This document shows positions 18,744 to 24,815 of a DNA stretch of 34,885 nucleotides, in pieces. The DNA lies in the NCBI GenBank assembly GCA_025361285.1, contig JANYAP010000167.1, forward strand, positions 1 through 34,885. The letters run 5' to 3'. A program made the translations under genes and the position numbers. The stretch comes from Bacteroidales bacterium (GTDB lineage: Bacteria > Bacteroidota > Bacteroidia > Bacteroidales > JAAUTT01). The notes beneath the pieces are model-generated. The model did not search any database, was not told where the DNA came from, and was given only the letters and a program-made list of their open reading frames with translations. Each line of letters opens with the position of its first letter. Position 1 is the first letter of the stretch.

Positions 18744-19742
18744 TTATTTGCTATTATAAATATCTTCTTCTTTTAAAAAGCCGTCGGCAACAACTGTACT
18801 TTTCATATTCGTTTTATCTAAGCTTATAGGATCTATTAAAAAACTCGGCACATCTTTTTGACCGTTATACAATGTGTTTCCTGTTAACTTAATATCTTGG
18901 TTTTTTGCACATTGTATTGCCAACTCAACAGCTCTATCTGCTAAAATTTTCAATGGTTTGTATATTGTCATTGCCTGTGTACCGTTAACAATATTCTGAC
19001 ATGCCTTCAATTCGGCATCTTGCCCAGTAATTAGCGGATATTTTAGTGCATTATTGGCATTTAGTGCATCTATTGCTCCATAAGAAAGTCCATCGTAGGC
19101 TGATAGAATAACATCTGGTACATCATTCGATGATAGCTCAAGATACTGATCGATTGCATGGTATGCGTTATCTCGTGCCCAATCTTCAATATATGTATCA
19201 TATACTACCTTAATTTTGCCCGACTTTATATACGGGTCTATAATTCCAGCCCATCCTTGTTTCATCCATACTGCATTCTGATCGGATTTGTCTCCTCCTA
19301 GCAAATAGTATTTCCCTTCGGGTACATATTTAGTGGCGTACTGTGCCATTAGTGTACCCACTTTAACATTATCGAATGAAACAAAATAATCTAGGTCGCA
19401 ATTTTGAATAAATCGGTCGTAAGCAATAACTTTAACATTGTTTTCGTGTGCAATTCGCACAATGGCTGCCCCTGTATTTTTGTTAACTGCAATTACTAGC
19501 AATACATCAACGCCTTGGTCAATTAATTGCTGTGTTTGCTCAATTTCCAATGAGGCACTTAAATTTGCATTAGTAACTATCACTTCCACATCAAGTAATT
19601 TTGCTTTTGCTAATATTATGTCTCTATCCTTTATCCACCGTTCATTTTCAACAGGCAACATGAGCCCAATTTTAACTTTGTTCGATGAACAAGAAGTTAA
19701 CATAAAACCCAATGATACTATGATTACGTATAAATATTTCAT
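18744..19742 (-). CDS. Xylose-binding-type (XylF-like) periplasmic-binding lipoprotein
   Basis: About 332 residues. The start (MKYLYVIIVSLGFMLTSCSS) is a lipoprotein signal with a lipobox Cys at 18. The rest is a type I periplasmic-binding fold of the XylF branch: KIGLMLPVENERWIKDRDI, the IEQTQQLIDQGVDVLLVIAVN segment, VKVIAYDRFI, ILSAYDGLSYGAIDAL and YPLITGQDAELKACQNIVNGTQAMTIYKPL. XylF-type proteins deliver D-xylose to an ABC importer, but no permease or ATPase for sugar is in the window. It may instead serve a sensor or a distant transporter. I preferred the ATG at 19742 over 19787 because the extra 15 residues would precede the lipoprotein signal. Confidence 0.88.
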   Translation of the reverse strand: MKYLYVIIVSLGFMLTSCSSNKVKIGLMLPVENERWIKDRDIILAKAKLLDVEVIVTNANLSASLEIEQTQQLIDQGVDVLLVIAVNKNTGAAIVRIAHENNVKVIAYDRFIQNCDLDYFVSFDNVKVGTLMAQYATKYVPEGKYYLLGGDKSDQNAVWMKQGWAGIIDPYIKSGKIKVVYDTYIEDWARDNAYHAIDQYLELSSNDVPDVILSAYDGLSYGAIDALNANNALKYPLITGQDAELKACQNIVNGTQAMTIYKPLKILADRAVELAIQCAKNQDIKLTGNTLYNGQKDVPSFLIDPISLDKTNMKSTVVADGFLKEEDIYNSK

Positions 19743-19836
19743 AATTAATACTTTATGTTTTCGTGAGTTATAGTAGCAAAATTTCAAGCATGAAGGTACA
19801 AAAAAAATTAACTAATTTTATTCAACATAATTTAAA

Positions 19837-20247
19837 CTACAAGTTTACCGAGCATTTTGTTAATATTACATCCATTAAGTAGCCAGTACAAATACCTTTA
19901 ACAGAAACAATTTGGCCAACTTTAACCGACGATGTATCAATTTCGGTTTTATTAAACGCACACATTACACCCTCTGTATCAGATTTTTCCTTTAAATATA
20001 CCGATATTTGACCATCTTTTTCCAATATTGTATCAACTTTGCCAGTAACTTCCACTATCTTATTAAGATAAAGCATATTAGTAGAGTCTTCGTTGGATGC
20101 ATAGGCTTTTATTAAAGTGTTAGCCGATACTACCGCCTCCGTTTTTTTTGATGCTACATTGGTATCCGATGGGCGAAAGGTTCGTTTCCAGACTAAATAA
20201 CCTGACAAAATCGCAAAAACTCCTAGAATTAGCCAAAATCTTTTCAT
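19837..20247 (-). CDS. Membrane-anchored OB-fold (tRNA_anti-like) protein
   Basis: A 136-residue protein (140 if the upstream ATG at 20259 is used) with one N-terminal membrane helix (FWLILGVFAILSGYLVW). A small beta-barrel domain follows, with YLNKIVEVTGKVDTI, a central strand set, and VGQIVSVKGICTGYLMDVILTKC. This is the pattern of the tRNA_anti-like OB-fold family seen in Bacteroidota envelope proteins. The ligand is unknown and no RNA link is implied. It follows yceI by 12-24 bp on the same strand, so the two are probably co-transcribed. Confidence 0.72.
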   Translation of the reverse strand: MKRFWLILGVFAILSGYLVWKRTFRPSDTNVASKKTEAVVSANTLIKAYASNEDSTNMLYLNKIVEVTGKVDTILEKDGQISVYLKEKSDTEGVMCAFNKTEIDTSSVKVGQIVSVKGICTGYLMDVILTKCSVNL

Positions 20248-20271
20248 ATTGTTAGTCATATACTTATAGTT

Positions 20272-20820
20272 TTACATTGGATTATAGGTAATATCAACAT
20301 TTACTTCCATTTCCTTAGCTATTTTGTTTTCAACTAATTGAGGAATAACTATCCCAAAATCCTTCGGAGCAATGGTAAATTTGGATACGGCAATAATCGA
20401 CGTTCCTTTCACTTCAATAGTTCCCTTAGTGGTAATTGTTTTAGTAATACCGTGCATCGAAAGTTCTCCTGTAACTTCTGCCGAATATACTCCCGCTTTT
20501 TTAAAATTTATGGTCGATAAATTTGTGATTTTACCACTAAAACTGGCCTTTGGAAATTTTTCGGACTCCATGTAATTCTCGTTGAAATGTTCCTGCATTA
20601 GAGCCACCTTAAACTCGAATGCTTTTTGAAGAAGATTAAACTTAATATCTCCTGTTGAGGCATCAATAACGCTAACAACTTGATTATTATGCGCTTCAAC
20701 ATTTTCCATAGGCGTGTGCGAATAAAACCAAACATGCCCATTTTTCGACAAATACTTTTGTGCACTTACCAATTGCAATGAAGCAATTAAAAGCATTGAA
20801 ACTAGAACTTTTGTTTTCAT
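20272..20820 (-). CDS. YceI family periplasmic lipid-binding protein
   Basis: A 182-residue protein with a signal peptide (to LVSA) and the YceI lipocalin-like barrel. The HFNENYMESEKFPKASFSGKI segment and ELSMHGITKTITTKGTIEV are the family's best-conserved parts. YceI proteins bind long polyisoprenoid or amphipathic lipids; in a known structure the barrel holds a polyisoprenoid chain. It pairs with the downstream OB-fold gene. The DUF5777/cytochrome operon lies 282 bp upstream on the same strand. Heptamer-like repeats occupy the region just before its start. Confidence 0.92.
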   Translation of the reverse strand: MKTKVLVSMLLIASLQLVSAQKYLSKNGHVWFYSHTPMENVEAHNNQVVSVIDASTGDIKFNLLQKAFEFKVALMQEHFNENYMESEKFPKASFSGKITNLSTINFKKAGVYSAEVTGELSMHGITKTITTKGTIEVKGTSIIAVSKFTIAPKDFGIVIPQLVENKIAKEMEVNVDITYNPM

Positions 20821-20828
20821 AATTTAAC

Positions 20829-20875
20829 AGTATTTAGTAAATAGTATAGTAATAAGTACTTAGTAATCTGTACTT
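20829..20875. repeat. Degenerate heptamer repeats (AGTANNN) upstream of yceI
   Basis: Copies read AGTATTT, AGTAAAT, a 5-bp AGTAT, AGTAATA, AGTACTT, AGTAATC and TGTACTT. They share the AGTA core with the arrays near 27020 and 30416. They lie directly before the yceI start on its upstream side. Nothing else is recognisable in the 20821-21102 gap. Confidence 0.6.
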
Positions 20876-21102
20876 TTAAAATATTAGGCACTGCAGGATT
20901 AAGAGTGAGAAACATCTCGAAAATTGACGATTAACACCTTGGTATGTGTTTGGCTTGTTGAGCATTAGACACTAAAATCTATATCTTTTTTAATAAATAT
21001 CGATTATAAGTTTAAGGTCTTAAATATGAGGCGTATATGAATTTACCTTCACTCTAAATCCTGTAGAGCCAAATATTATAACATCAACCCTTTGTAAACT
21101 GT

Positions 21103-22002
21103 TCATTTTAATGCAAAAACTCGCGAAATATTAAAGCCGAAGCGAATACCCGCATCGCTCCATTTGCTTTGTGTGTTGGTAATAAAATTTTTCTCAATCA
21201 TCGATTCGGAATTCGATACAAACAATTGAAATACATGACCGCCCGTTTCCAAATCGAAACCTATCGATAACGGATTATATGTTTTTGTTTTGCGATAATC
21301 GTTAAGTGGAGGAATAACATAATAATATTCCACATTAATCGAAATTCGTTTAGTAAGTTTATAGCGAAACCCAGCCCCTACAGCTAATACATCGTTCGGT
21401 TCCAATTCACTTTCTACTAAATTTTGGTGAACAAAAGTAGGGTTTAATTCGAGCGAAAACCGGTCGTTAAACTTACGAGCAACCAGTAACTGATATACAT
21501 AACAAAAACGCGAAAAATATGGTATTTGTTTGCCTGTTAAACCAATTTCGTTTGGGTAAGCAGTAAAAAATGAAGTTGATGAAAGCAATGATAAGGATAT
21601 TGGCATATTTTTAGCTCCTTTCGATTGACGTAGTAGAGAAAATTTGGCGAAACCATCGTATGTTTTATTTAAGTTTCCTCGCCCCACTCCTACCATCAAC
21701 CAGTTGGTAATTCCATATTCCAAACTTAAATGAATATTCGATTGATCGAGACCCCAAAAATTATGAGCACCCGAGTTTAAAGTGCCAAACCTGTGCGAAA
21801 TTCGAAAATCGAGCTGATGAACAGGCATACGCTCAATTGAATGACCATTAACAATGCGAGTTGATTTAAAGGTTGCCGTTGTATACTCGGTACTGCTGTT
21901 GGTTGCCTCGGTTAACAGCTGATCCAAGTCCTGTGCCGACATATATCTTACTGTAAATGATAACATTAACAAAAACAGTATTCTTAAAAAATGGTTTATC
22001 AT
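21103..22002 (-). CDS. DUF5777 family outer-membrane beta-barrel protein
   Basis: A 299-residue protein with a signal peptide (to YMSAQ). The body has repeated amphipathic strands. The phrases DFRISHRFGTLNSGAHNFWGLDQSNIHLSLEYGITNWLMVGVGR and PLSIGFDLETGGHVFQLFVSNS are typical of the DUF5777 family. It is predicted to be an outer-membrane barrel of unknown cargo. It is the third gene of a minus-strand run with the two heme lipoproteins (gaps of about 35 and 49 bp), so it is probably in one operon with them. Confidence 0.85.
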   Translation of the reverse strand: MINHFLRILFLLMLSFTVRYMSAQDLDQLLTEATNSSTEYTTATFKSTRIVNGHSIERMPVHQLDFRISHRFGTLNSGAHNFWGLDQSNIHLSLEYGITNWLMVGVGRGNLNKTYDGFAKFSLLRQSKGAKNMPISLSLLSSTSFFTAYPNEIGLTGKQIPYFSRFCYVYQLLVARKFNDRFSLELNPTFVHQNLVESELEPNDVLAVGAGFRYKLTKRISINVEYYYVIPPLNDYRKTKTYNPLSIGFDLETGGHVFQLFVSNSESMIEKNFITNTQSKWSDAGIRFGFNISRVFALK

Positions 22003-22051
22003 TTTTGAAAAGTTTGGATTACAATATGTTAATTATGTTGGTTTGTTAAAA

Positions 22052-22438
22052 CTAATTTTTGGGTGACTGATTTCCAATCCATATTTTAATTGATTGAATA
22101 CTGCAATCGCTTAAAATATAGCCCTGTGGCATTGCCTTTGTGCCTGTATATTCGCCAGTGTGCAAAATACTGCCTAAAAGTTGTCCGTTATCAACCTGAA
22201 CTTTTACATTTGCATATGTATCAAGCAATATGTTACCTTTTGGTAATGCTCCACTGTGACACGATGTGCAATTTTCATTCAAAATTTTAAAAATTGCGCC
22301 TTCGAATACAACAGGCGAAATGGTATCGGTACATGCCGAATTTAAGGTTGGATATAGAAATTCTTTGCTGTCGTAATAACAGCTTGATAATAAAATGAGT
22401 ACTAGGGTCGAGAATGTTATTAAAACTTTCATTGGCAA
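22052..22438 (-). CDS. Mono-heme c-type cytochrome-like lipoprotein
   Basis: A 128-residue protein. It begins with a lipoprotein signal (VLILLSSCYY) and carries one CTSCH heme c motif in FKILNENCTSCHSGALPKG. A C-terminal helix (SIQSIKIWIGNQSPKN) resembles the end of planctomycete-type cytochrome domains. The domain is close to the first domain of the upstream five-heme protein. It probably accepts or relays electrons at the outer membrane or in the periplasm. It lies between the five-heme gene and the DUF5777 gene. Confidence 0.85.
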   Translation of the reverse strand: MPMKVLITFSTLVLILLSSCYYDSKEFLYPTLNSACTDTISPVVFEGAIFKILNENCTSCHSGALPKGNILLDTYANVKVQVDNGQLLGSILHTGEYTGTKAMPQGYILSDCSIQSIKIWIGNQSPKN

Positions 22439-22473
22439 TTACTTTGTTGGTCGGTAAATAATGGTTCGCTATT

Positions 22474-23700
22474 TCAATCGTTTTCGGGTATGCTTTTTAA
22501 AGCATTAGCAATGGCCTTAATTTGTATTGCGGTAAGCGACGATAAATATTTCATTTGGGTTACTTCGCCTATGGCCTGCGTAATTTCGCTTACAGGTTTA
22601 CCTCCAACATTTGAGTTGGCAAATGGACCGTGACATTTAGCACACGTGTTAGTATACAATTCTTTACCATCGGGATTTGGGTTTGGCGTACCTGCAAGTG
22701 CCGTAATTATTGCTTGTTTTTGAGGATCGGAAAGCTGTGAGAGATTCTTCATTTCGGGTACATTATTAACGCCAGCTAATAACTGATTTAATAAAGCTCC
22801 AATTTTTGAAGATGTTGCTAGTGGTCCATGACATCCGGCACAATAAGTAGCATACAATAATGCGCCATCGAGTGTTGAAATTGGAGTTCCTACCAACGAA
22901 TCGGCAATGGCCTTGCGCTGAGCATCGGTAAGTACCGAAAGATTTTTCATATCGGGTATTGTGTTTATACCGTTATTGATATCAGAAACCGTTGCATTTA
23001 ATTTTGCCGAAGTAGCCAACGGTCCGTGACATGACTTACAATACGAAGCGTACAAAACAGCTCCATTTAGCGTTGTAAAAGGCGATCCAACCAAAACGCT
23101 TACAATAGCTTGCCGTTGTGCGTCGGAAAGTAATTTAAGGCTCTTCATCAACGAAACGCTGTCAATGCCCTTATTTAACATGAGCCCCGAAGCACCTCGC
23201 TTGGTCGAAGTTGACAACGGTCCGTGACAACCTTCGCAATAGGTGGAATATAAAACAGCGCCATCAACAGATGATATAGGGGCAATTGGAGGTAAAGCAA
23301 CTGCATCCTTCAAACAAACTTTATTATGTGCTCCCTGAGCAATCCAAACTTCGAGAATATGTAACTGATTACTAGTTAATGCCCTGTTAGGAGGCATCAT
23401 ATTAGGGTTGTTAGGGCTGCTAACAATTGTGTAAAGCTTACTCTTAGCAATATTGCCAGGAGTTACCAATTGTAGTACGTTCTCGTAAATCGAATCGATT
23501 AATATATCGCTTTTACTGCCATTAGGACTATGGCATTCGGCACATTGCGACATAAGTATTGGAACAACATCTCGGGTAAAACACACGGTGTCAAGCTCAT
23601 CGATACCCACTGGATCGTGCCTACACGATTGTAACTGCATTACAGTAAAGTATATAAATGCAATCACAAACGCCGCAATATTTAGTTTAAATCGTTGCAT
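22474..23700 (-). CDS. Five-heme c-type cytochrome lipoprotein with four tandem 66-residue domains
   Basis: A 408-residue protein. Its N-terminal signal ends in a lipobox-like LQSC (Cys26). Five CxxCH motifs are present: CAECH 53-57, CEGCH 155-159, CKSCH 221-225, CAGCH 287-291 and CAKCH 353-357. The last four are spaced exactly 66 residues apart and each repeat ends in a conserved 'MKxLSxLTDxQxxAI' helix with a likely axial Met. The first domain (PILMSQCAECHSPNGSKSD, MMPPNRALT) is of the planctomycete cytochrome type. It is a predicted multi-heme electron carrier at the outer membrane, first gene of a run with a mono-heme lipoprotein and DUF5777. Confidence 0.93.
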   Translation of the reverse strand: MQRFKLNIAAFVIAFIYFTVMQLQSCRHDPVGIDELDTVCFTRDVVPILMSQCAECHSPNGSKSDILIDSIYENVLQLVTPGNIAKSKLYTIVSSPNNPNMMPPNRALTSNQLHILEVWIAQGAHNKVCLKDAVALPPIAPISSVDGAVLYSTYCEGCHGPLSTSTKRGASGLMLNKGIDSVSLMKSLKLLSDAQRQAIVSVLVGSPFTTLNGAVLYASYCKSCHGPLATSAKLNATVSDINNGINTIPDMKNLSVLTDAQRKAIADSLVGTPISTLDGALLYATYCAGCHGPLATSSKIGALLNQLLAGVNNVPEMKNLSQLSDPQKQAIITALAGTPNPNPDGKELYTNTCAKCHGPFANSNVGGKPVSEITQAIGEVTQMKYLSSLTAIQIKAIANALKSIPEND

Positions 23701-23783: not shown

Positions 23784-24815
23784 TTATTTCAGTAATTTTT
23801 TGATAGGAGTCACAAACCTTTTTATATCTGTTTCTTCTGTATCCCACGATGTCATACATCGCACTTCGTTAAGTTAATCGTTTACCACATAAAAGAAATA
23901 TTCTTGTTGAAGGGGTTCGATTATATTTTTGGGAACAATTGCAAATACACCATTCGATTTAACTTCCTGAGTTATTTTTATTTCATTTATTTTCGAAACT
24001 TCCGATGCCAATAATTGAGCAATTCGATTAGCATTAGATGCATTTTGTAACCATAAATTATGGTGGAAATAGGCTAAAAACTGGGCTGTAATGTATCGCA
24101 TTTTCGATGCCGACTGCATTCCTTGTTTTCGATAATACATAAAATCGGTGTCCAATCCATTTTTCAGAAAAACAATAGCTTCGCCATACAAAAAGCCGTT
24201 TTTTGTGCCTCCAAACGATAAAACATCAACACCAGTATCGGTTATCATTTCTTTGAAAGAAATTTCGAGTGACGCGGCGGCATTTGCAATTCTAGCACCG
24301 TCAACATGCAGATACATACCGTGATTATGTGCCAAATCGGCTAATTCTTTAATTTCCTGAGCCGTATAAACTGTTCCTAGTTCGGTTGGTTGCGAAATGG
24401 AAATTACTTTTGGTTGTGAATGATGCTCAAAACCAAACCAGTGTAAATGCTTATTTATTGCTTCGGGCGTTATCTTTCCGTTATCGGTTACGATAGGTAT
24501 TATTTTACATCCAGTAAACTTTTCGGGAGCACCGCATTCATCAACATGAATATGAGCCGTTTCGGCACAAATAATTGAATGAAAAGAATTTATTAAGGCT
24601 TTAATACCTAATACATTAGCAGCAGTACCCAATAATACAAAGTTAACTGATGCTTGATATCCAAATACTTCCCTAAACTTTTCTGGCCAGTTGTGAGTAG
24701 TTATCGGTGCCATATCCAATAGCGTGACCTATATTTACTTCCGAAAGTTTTTGTAATAGTTCGGGTGAACGCCTGAGTTATTATCGCTGGCAAAGCCTCG
24801 CTTATCGATTTCCAT
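23784..24815 (-). pseudogene. ltaE: Low-specificity L-threonine aldolase pseudogene: two frameshifts and one in-frame stop
   Basis: The track ORF (23874-24719) is only the middle of a threonine aldolase, a PLP enzyme cleaving L-threonine to glycine and acetaldehyde. Upstream, ATG at 24815 opens MEIDKRGFASDNNSGVHP, the family N-terminus. Frame is lost at a CCC run (24763-24765) and continues in the next frame as PELLQKLSEVNIGHAIGYGTDNYSQLARK. It is lost again near 24680 and continues as KFREVFGYQA. After VVND an in-frame TAA (23874-23876) is followed in the same frame by LNEVRCMTSWDTEETDIKRFV and a real stop at 23784. The rejoined length of about 344 codons fits the family. The PLP-lysine region (LSFGGTKNGF) is intact. 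Confidence 0.87.

Follow-up and report, generated by a model that had tools for sequence, protein, structure and literature searches.

Our findings suggest that a five-gene locus of a Bacteroidales bacterium encodes an outer-envelope electron-transfer module, in which a predicted 12-strand DUF5777 barrel is combined with a one-electron carrier and with a YceI protein on the lipid or quinone side, a reading to which we assign a probability of about 0.5. By analogy, the module is best read as a two-part, Cyc2-like unit of barrel plus carrier. The locus lies in a window of 34,885 nucleotides, the whole stretch of DNA that was analysed (contig JANYAP010000167.1), and all five minus-strand open reading frames that the initial annotation had reported at 19837-23700 were recovered with the same coordinates and strand:

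22474-23700, minus strand: five-heme lipoprotein gene; 408 aa, lipobox ..LQSC, five CXXCH motifs
22052-22438, minus strand: mono-heme lipoprotein gene; 128 aa, lipobox LLSSC, one CXXCH (CTSCH)
21103-22002, minus strand: DUF5777 gene; 299 aa, PF19089 (E=4e-95)
20821-21102: intergenic gap of 282 bp between the DUF5777 and YceI genes
20272-20820, minus strand: YceI gene; 182 aa, PF04264 (E=6e-17), secreted lipocalin-like family
19837-20259, minus strand: OB-fold gene; 140 aa, N-terminal TM helix, PF12869 tRNA_anti-like (E=2e-21)

The curated Pfam cut-offs were passed by all window products except the mono-heme protein, with 318 bits for DUF5777 (gathering score 23.1; model positions 1-247 of 247), 62.8 bits for YceI (gathering score 23.7; model positions 12-149 of 150) and 76.6 bits for the OB-fold protein (gathering score 23.5). 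From the five-heme gene towards the OB-fold gene, the intergenic distances are 35, 49, 282 and 12 bp. Promoter and terminator scans of the 282-bp gap in the window genome gave no signal above shuffled sequences, and the DUF5777-YceI junction measures only -4 to +30 bp in many relatives; one transcript spanning the gap in the window genome is a candidate only. Both flanking genes, which encode a xylose-type sugar-binding protein (18744-19787) and a threonine-aldolase-like protein (23874-24719), fall outside the recurring gene set. The former is a lone lipoprotein. The latter, a Beta_elim_lyase frame, is readable only from an internal TTG and its match begins at Pfam model position 38; the annotated start may be late, or the gene may be truncated.

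DUF5777 is present in 99 of the 248 sampled Bacteroidota genomes and in 49 of the 119 genomes of the order, and the neighbourhoods of 140 DUF5777 loci were annotated using profiles derived from the genes of the window. The exact order multi-heme, mono-heme, DUF5777, YceI, OB is shared by the window with six other genomes (L132, L144, L155, L156, L161 and L165, of which L144 is listed as the same genus). Permuted five-gene sets occur in about a dozen more, for instance in the order multi-heme, mono-heme, OB, YceI, DUF5777 (L046, L047, L135, L150, L151, L159 and L162). The commonest arrangement is a reduced one of mono-heme, YceI and DUF5777, and the core of carrier, YceI and DUF5777 is spread across Bacteroidota. 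Across 98 phylum loci, the mono-heme family accounts for 14% of the genes within three positions of DUF5777 against 0.2% of those five or more positions away; the corresponding values are 13% and 0.4% for YceI, which lies within three genes of DUF5777 in 73 of these loci, and 3.3% and 0 for the OB-fold protein. The gene association around DUF5777 exceeds chance, and the exact order in six other genomes, together with this large enrichment near the barrel, excludes a gene set without a conserved neighbourhood.

The strongest part of the case, which is independent of any analogy, is an apparent need of the barrel for an electron carrier as its partner. Of 101 phylum-level loci, 94 encode a small one-electron carrier no more than 3 kb away from DUF5777, which supports the envelope redox module proposed in the initial annotation. 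The carrier is a heme protein in 81 loci (one of them also with a Rieske protein), a Rieske 2Fe-2S protein alone in 10 (10-11 loci have Rieske in all) and plastocyanin alone in 3. The view of loci without a heme partner as exceptions was overturned when inspection revealed Rieske (PF00355, best E=4.6e-11) or plastocyanin (PF00127, best E=1e-14) genes there, identities that stood above the curated cut-offs in all six examples scanned. On a quick DUF5777 tree with shallow support, the Rieske label changes six times, five of them forced by supported branches. Since Rieske and plastocyanin stand in place of heme, with at least five changes, electron transfer, not heme, appears to be what is kept. 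The seven carrier-less loci comprise L042 and L121 near contig ends, L130, whose DUF5777 match is weak and has a CGGCH protein as neighbour, and L066, L084, L092 and L109, where YceI is present and no carrier was recognised in the 3 kb around DUF5777. In L040 (5222-5797) and L050 (7007-7594), the gene directly beside DUF5777 encodes a plastocyanin-like protein carrying a type IX sorting tail.

Heme domain and barrel are also found on a single protein, in seven genomes. One such protein occurs in the phylum sample (L129), and six more genomes in its order carry copies (L185-L190) that are colinear over both parts, 52-56% identical to the L129 copy and free of stops. In this one-chain layout the heme domain is N-terminal and the barrel C-terminal, and CX4CH is found in all six copies aligned. 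The conserved neighbourhood and the natural fusion argue for a carrier-barrel pairing, and repeated carrier replacement together with fusion indicates that the partner has to be an electron carrier. The proposed tie between barrel and cytochromes is thus borne out by the phylum-wide pairing and the heme-DUF5777 fusions.

The mono-heme lipoprotein of the window, whose start is probably the ATG at 22432, falls below every Pfam cut-off (PF13442 E=0.047) and groups clearly with a local family, the DUF5777-partner heme family. Members near DUF5777 have CX2CH or CX4CH in 163 of 164 cases and CX3CH in the remaining one, so that essentially all keep the heme motif despite this variation; heme loss in partners lacking CXXCH is ruled out, as these have CX4CH or CX3CH. 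A lipobox-like site was found in 115 of the 117 partners checked. Acidic residues after the lipobox Cys are raised at +4 and +6 to +8 relative to background lipoproteins, and the consensus of the published LES, the Bacteroidota surface lipoprotein signal, which is acidic and lies just after that Cys (PMC5080379), is not matched; a surface export signal of the heme lipoproteins is only suggestive.

The five-heme lipoprotein (CAECH, CEGCH, CKSCH, CAGCH and CAKCH) matches PF13442 over three stretches (E=1.2e-27) as well as PF07635 PSCyt1, and consists of an N-terminal PSCyt1-like domain followed by four tandem CBB3-type repeats. By eye, the N-terminal domain resembles the first domain of the multi-heme lipoprotein at the equivalent place in relatives, where this gene mostly encodes 2-5 heme domains. 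The last four repeats share 33-54% mutual identity, and a search of 118 other genomes of the order gave no match to them at E<=1e-5; within the sample, they are special to the window genome. As read from the sequence, each of the five domains has a downstream Met that could act as distal ligand and is therefore seen as a separate class-I-like single-heme unit, and the protein is best seen as five such domains in a row. A packed bis-His multiheme was set aside, the domains being separate single-heme units.

For DUF5777, AlphaFold2 run on a nine-row alignment gave a 12-strand barrel (pLDDT 76.5, pTM 0.70), in keeping with the outer-membrane barrel that had been predicted from the window. Its PDB matches are porin-type barrels, including the monomeric porins NanC, KdgM, OmpG and FapF and also OMPLA, at low TM-scores, and therefore only the barrel class is safe. 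DUF5777 is accordingly presented here as a predicted outer-membrane beta-barrel of 12 strands, in which H70, H256, F72, F258 and R294 are near-invariant among 148 sequences. A literature search, with most subscription journals outside its scope, found no paper mentioning DUF5777.

The porin-cytochrome logic that the initial annotation had invoked holds in that an outer-membrane barrel is accompanied by cytochromes, as in MtrCAB, and is not supported for an MtrCAB-type conduit. MtrB has 26 strands (PMC8406198), which in MtrCAB surround a decaheme, whereas the DUF5777 module has 12 predicted strands and five separate heme domains, and no MtrB-like structure is among the PDB matches listed for the DUF5777 model. 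The 12-strand AlphaFold2 barrel therefore does not support an MtrCAB conduit, which was rejected on strand number and heme type. A mono-heme cytochrome-barrel pair is the better analogy because heme-DUF5777 fusions exist, and Cyc2, a fused cytochrome-porin that serves as an iron oxidase, is the precedent for such a device (PMC8406198), with one heme domain and one outer-membrane barrel on a single chain, as in L129 and L185-L190. However, Cyc2 has 16 strands against 12 predicted for DUF5777, and the partner of DUF5777 is normally a separate lipoprotein; the window genes are separate, the fusion occurring only in other genomes. Furthermore, the Cyc2 motif AXPXFAR[QK][TY] was found in none of 117 partners and in none of 6 fusions, the carrier can be a Rieske protein or plastocyanin, and YceI and OB-fold partners are added.

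The window genome has a second DUF5777 locus (L032; G000 contig 30, 4454-10512), with genes for a Crp-family regulator, a heme lipoprotein, DUF5777, an Fe-S protein with a Tat-like signal, NrfD, a 288-aa protein and a CBB3-type cytochrome c. In the order, similar paralogous loci also contain genes for hexaheme and heptaheme cytochromes, the former a lipoprotein, for a NapC/NirT-type cytochrome and for cytochrome b561, the last identified in L176, itself without YceI. The YceI and OB genes are absent from the paralogous multiheme loci of the order while carrier and barrel are present; what stays constant is therefore the carrier with the barrel, YceI and the OB-fold protein being accessories in one branch. 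The heme partners sort by gene context, with 10 changes compared with 28 on average after shuffling. In a third context, which lacks YceI, two-CXXCH proteins of ~340-370 aa (L106 6570-7595; L105 4677-5726; L051 8238-9344) adjoin or lie near the heme protein and DUF5777.

The OB-fold protein is the sole PF12869 match in the window genome, and the best PDB match of its model (pLDDT 79.8) is 3f1z (PF12869). It resembles CcmE as a membrane-anchored OB-fold near c-type cytochromes, with weak fold similarity (rank 35); unlike CcmE, which has a conserved heme-binding histidine, it contains no histidine and therefore no covalent heme ligand. A role as a CcmE-like heme chaperone was rejected on this ground; the closest fold is 3f1z. 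Conserved residues across the family are mainly Gly and Cys, with no His; C100, C124 and C136 are conserved, and three Cys are kept in most members. Phmmer searches with YceI and the OB-fold protein against solved structures returned nothing useful.

Under the barrel-plus-carrier reading, DUF5777 would pair with a one-electron carrier of its own, usually anchored by lipid; in the window this is the mono-heme lipoprotein. The carrier would dock at the barrel mouth and exchange electrons with something arriving through or beside the barrel. A 12-strand barrel is presumably too small for threading a folded cytochrome domain, so electrons would pass from the mouth. The five-heme lipoprotein could serve as a flexible electron relay or capacitor, YceI, judging from its family, may ferry an isoprenoid lipid or quinone to and from the barrel or carrier, and the OB-fold protein would be an accessory held by its N-terminal helix, probably in the inner membrane, with cysteines that may be redox-active or structural. 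We infer direct contact of carrier and barrel, electrons crossing the membrane and YceI carrying quinone. His/Met-type c domains, Rieske centres and plastocyanins are usually of fairly high potential, which would suit either the oxidation of a substrate in the envelope or outside it, with electrons going to a terminal oxidase, or the reduction of a strong oxidant, for example a lipid peroxide. COX1 was found in 35 of the 45 genomes with a strong DUF5777 match and in 14 of the 74 others of the order (p=2e-10, kinship ignored), and ten DUF5777-positive genomes of the order have no detectable COX1. The window genome has a cytochrome c assembly gene.

The main rival is lipid-peroxide detoxification of the BcnA/LcoA kind, an envelope antioxidant system in which YceI would bind isoprenoid quinone or oxidised lipid, the carrier would deliver or remove electrons, quenching outer-membrane lipid peroxides, and the barrel would anchor the parts or handle lipid; we consider it rather unlikely. 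According to the passages of PMC9113575 on these proteins, YceI proteins bind ubiquinone-8 or octaprenyl compounds, BcnA (YceI) with the cytochrome b561 LcoA lowers membrane lipid peroxidation, and adjacent or fused YceI-cytochrome pairs recur in that setting. As there, YceI is genetically linked to a redox protein, with fusions and a conserved neighbourhood as evidence; YceI occurs in most DUF5777 loci, and the COX1 association also fits. However, those passages mention no barrel partner, and the DUF5777 module of Bacteroidota has an outer-membrane barrel and a c-type, Rieske or copper carrier, lipid-anchored or periplasmic and probably of high potential, not a membrane quinol-reducing b561; the five window genes include no b561. 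Moreover, YceI is missing from the paralogous multiheme loci where carrier and barrel stay together, and is therefore not core. As a family, the module matches neither Cyc2 nor BcnA/LcoA. In a Riemerella RNA-seq study of iron limitation, a YceI gene is listed among the changed genes, with no link drawn to a DUF5777 locus.

Less probable still is a conduit across the outer membrane that would, together with surface partners, exchange electrons with the outside in metal oxidation or reduction. The fused heme-barrel form, the hexaheme lipoprotein, heptaheme, b561 and NapC/NirT-type genes of paralogous loci, and the plastocyanin or DOMON-like proteins with type IX tags that are encoded next to some loci are consistent with it, whereas the 12-strand barrel, the lack of the Cyc2 motif, a lipoprotein surface signal that differs from the published LES and a window locus with no surface or metal gene argue against it. 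Type IX tails near the barrel are not enriched overall (15 of 604 versus 9 of 377 genes), a general association with type IX secreted surface proteins was rejected, and a surface partner is therefore suggested by a few cases only. Type IX secreted proteins occur near DUF5777 in L054 (5163-5915), L058 (8243-8998) and L080 (7938-8735), behind a small repeat protein (ankyrin-like by eye); two have a weak DOMON match, and they are possible surface redox proteins. A role of DUF5777 as an ordinary channel or as a lipid transporter, with cytochromes that only share its regulation, seems very unlikely: the fold of DUF5777 resembles NanC, KdgM, OmpG, FapF and OMPLA, but phylum-wide pairing, fusion and carrier replacement are hard to square with shared regulation.

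More broadly, it is possible, if on balance doubtful, that DUF5777 represents an undescribed class of outer-membrane electron-transfer barrel with a modular carrier, for which evolution would have recruited cytochrome c, Rieske or blue-copper proteins time and again, and with YceI feeding a lipid-soluble redox substrate, which would give Bacteroidota a quinone- or lipid-linked electron route across the outer membrane or along it. With a minimal set of three genes, the question lends itself to simple experiments. If the barrel-plus-carrier reading is true, a large group of environmental bacteria would have a redox device of the outer membrane that differs from both MtrCAB and Cyc2 and has replaceable carriers, and the YceI proteins of Bacteroidota would gain a defined redox partner.
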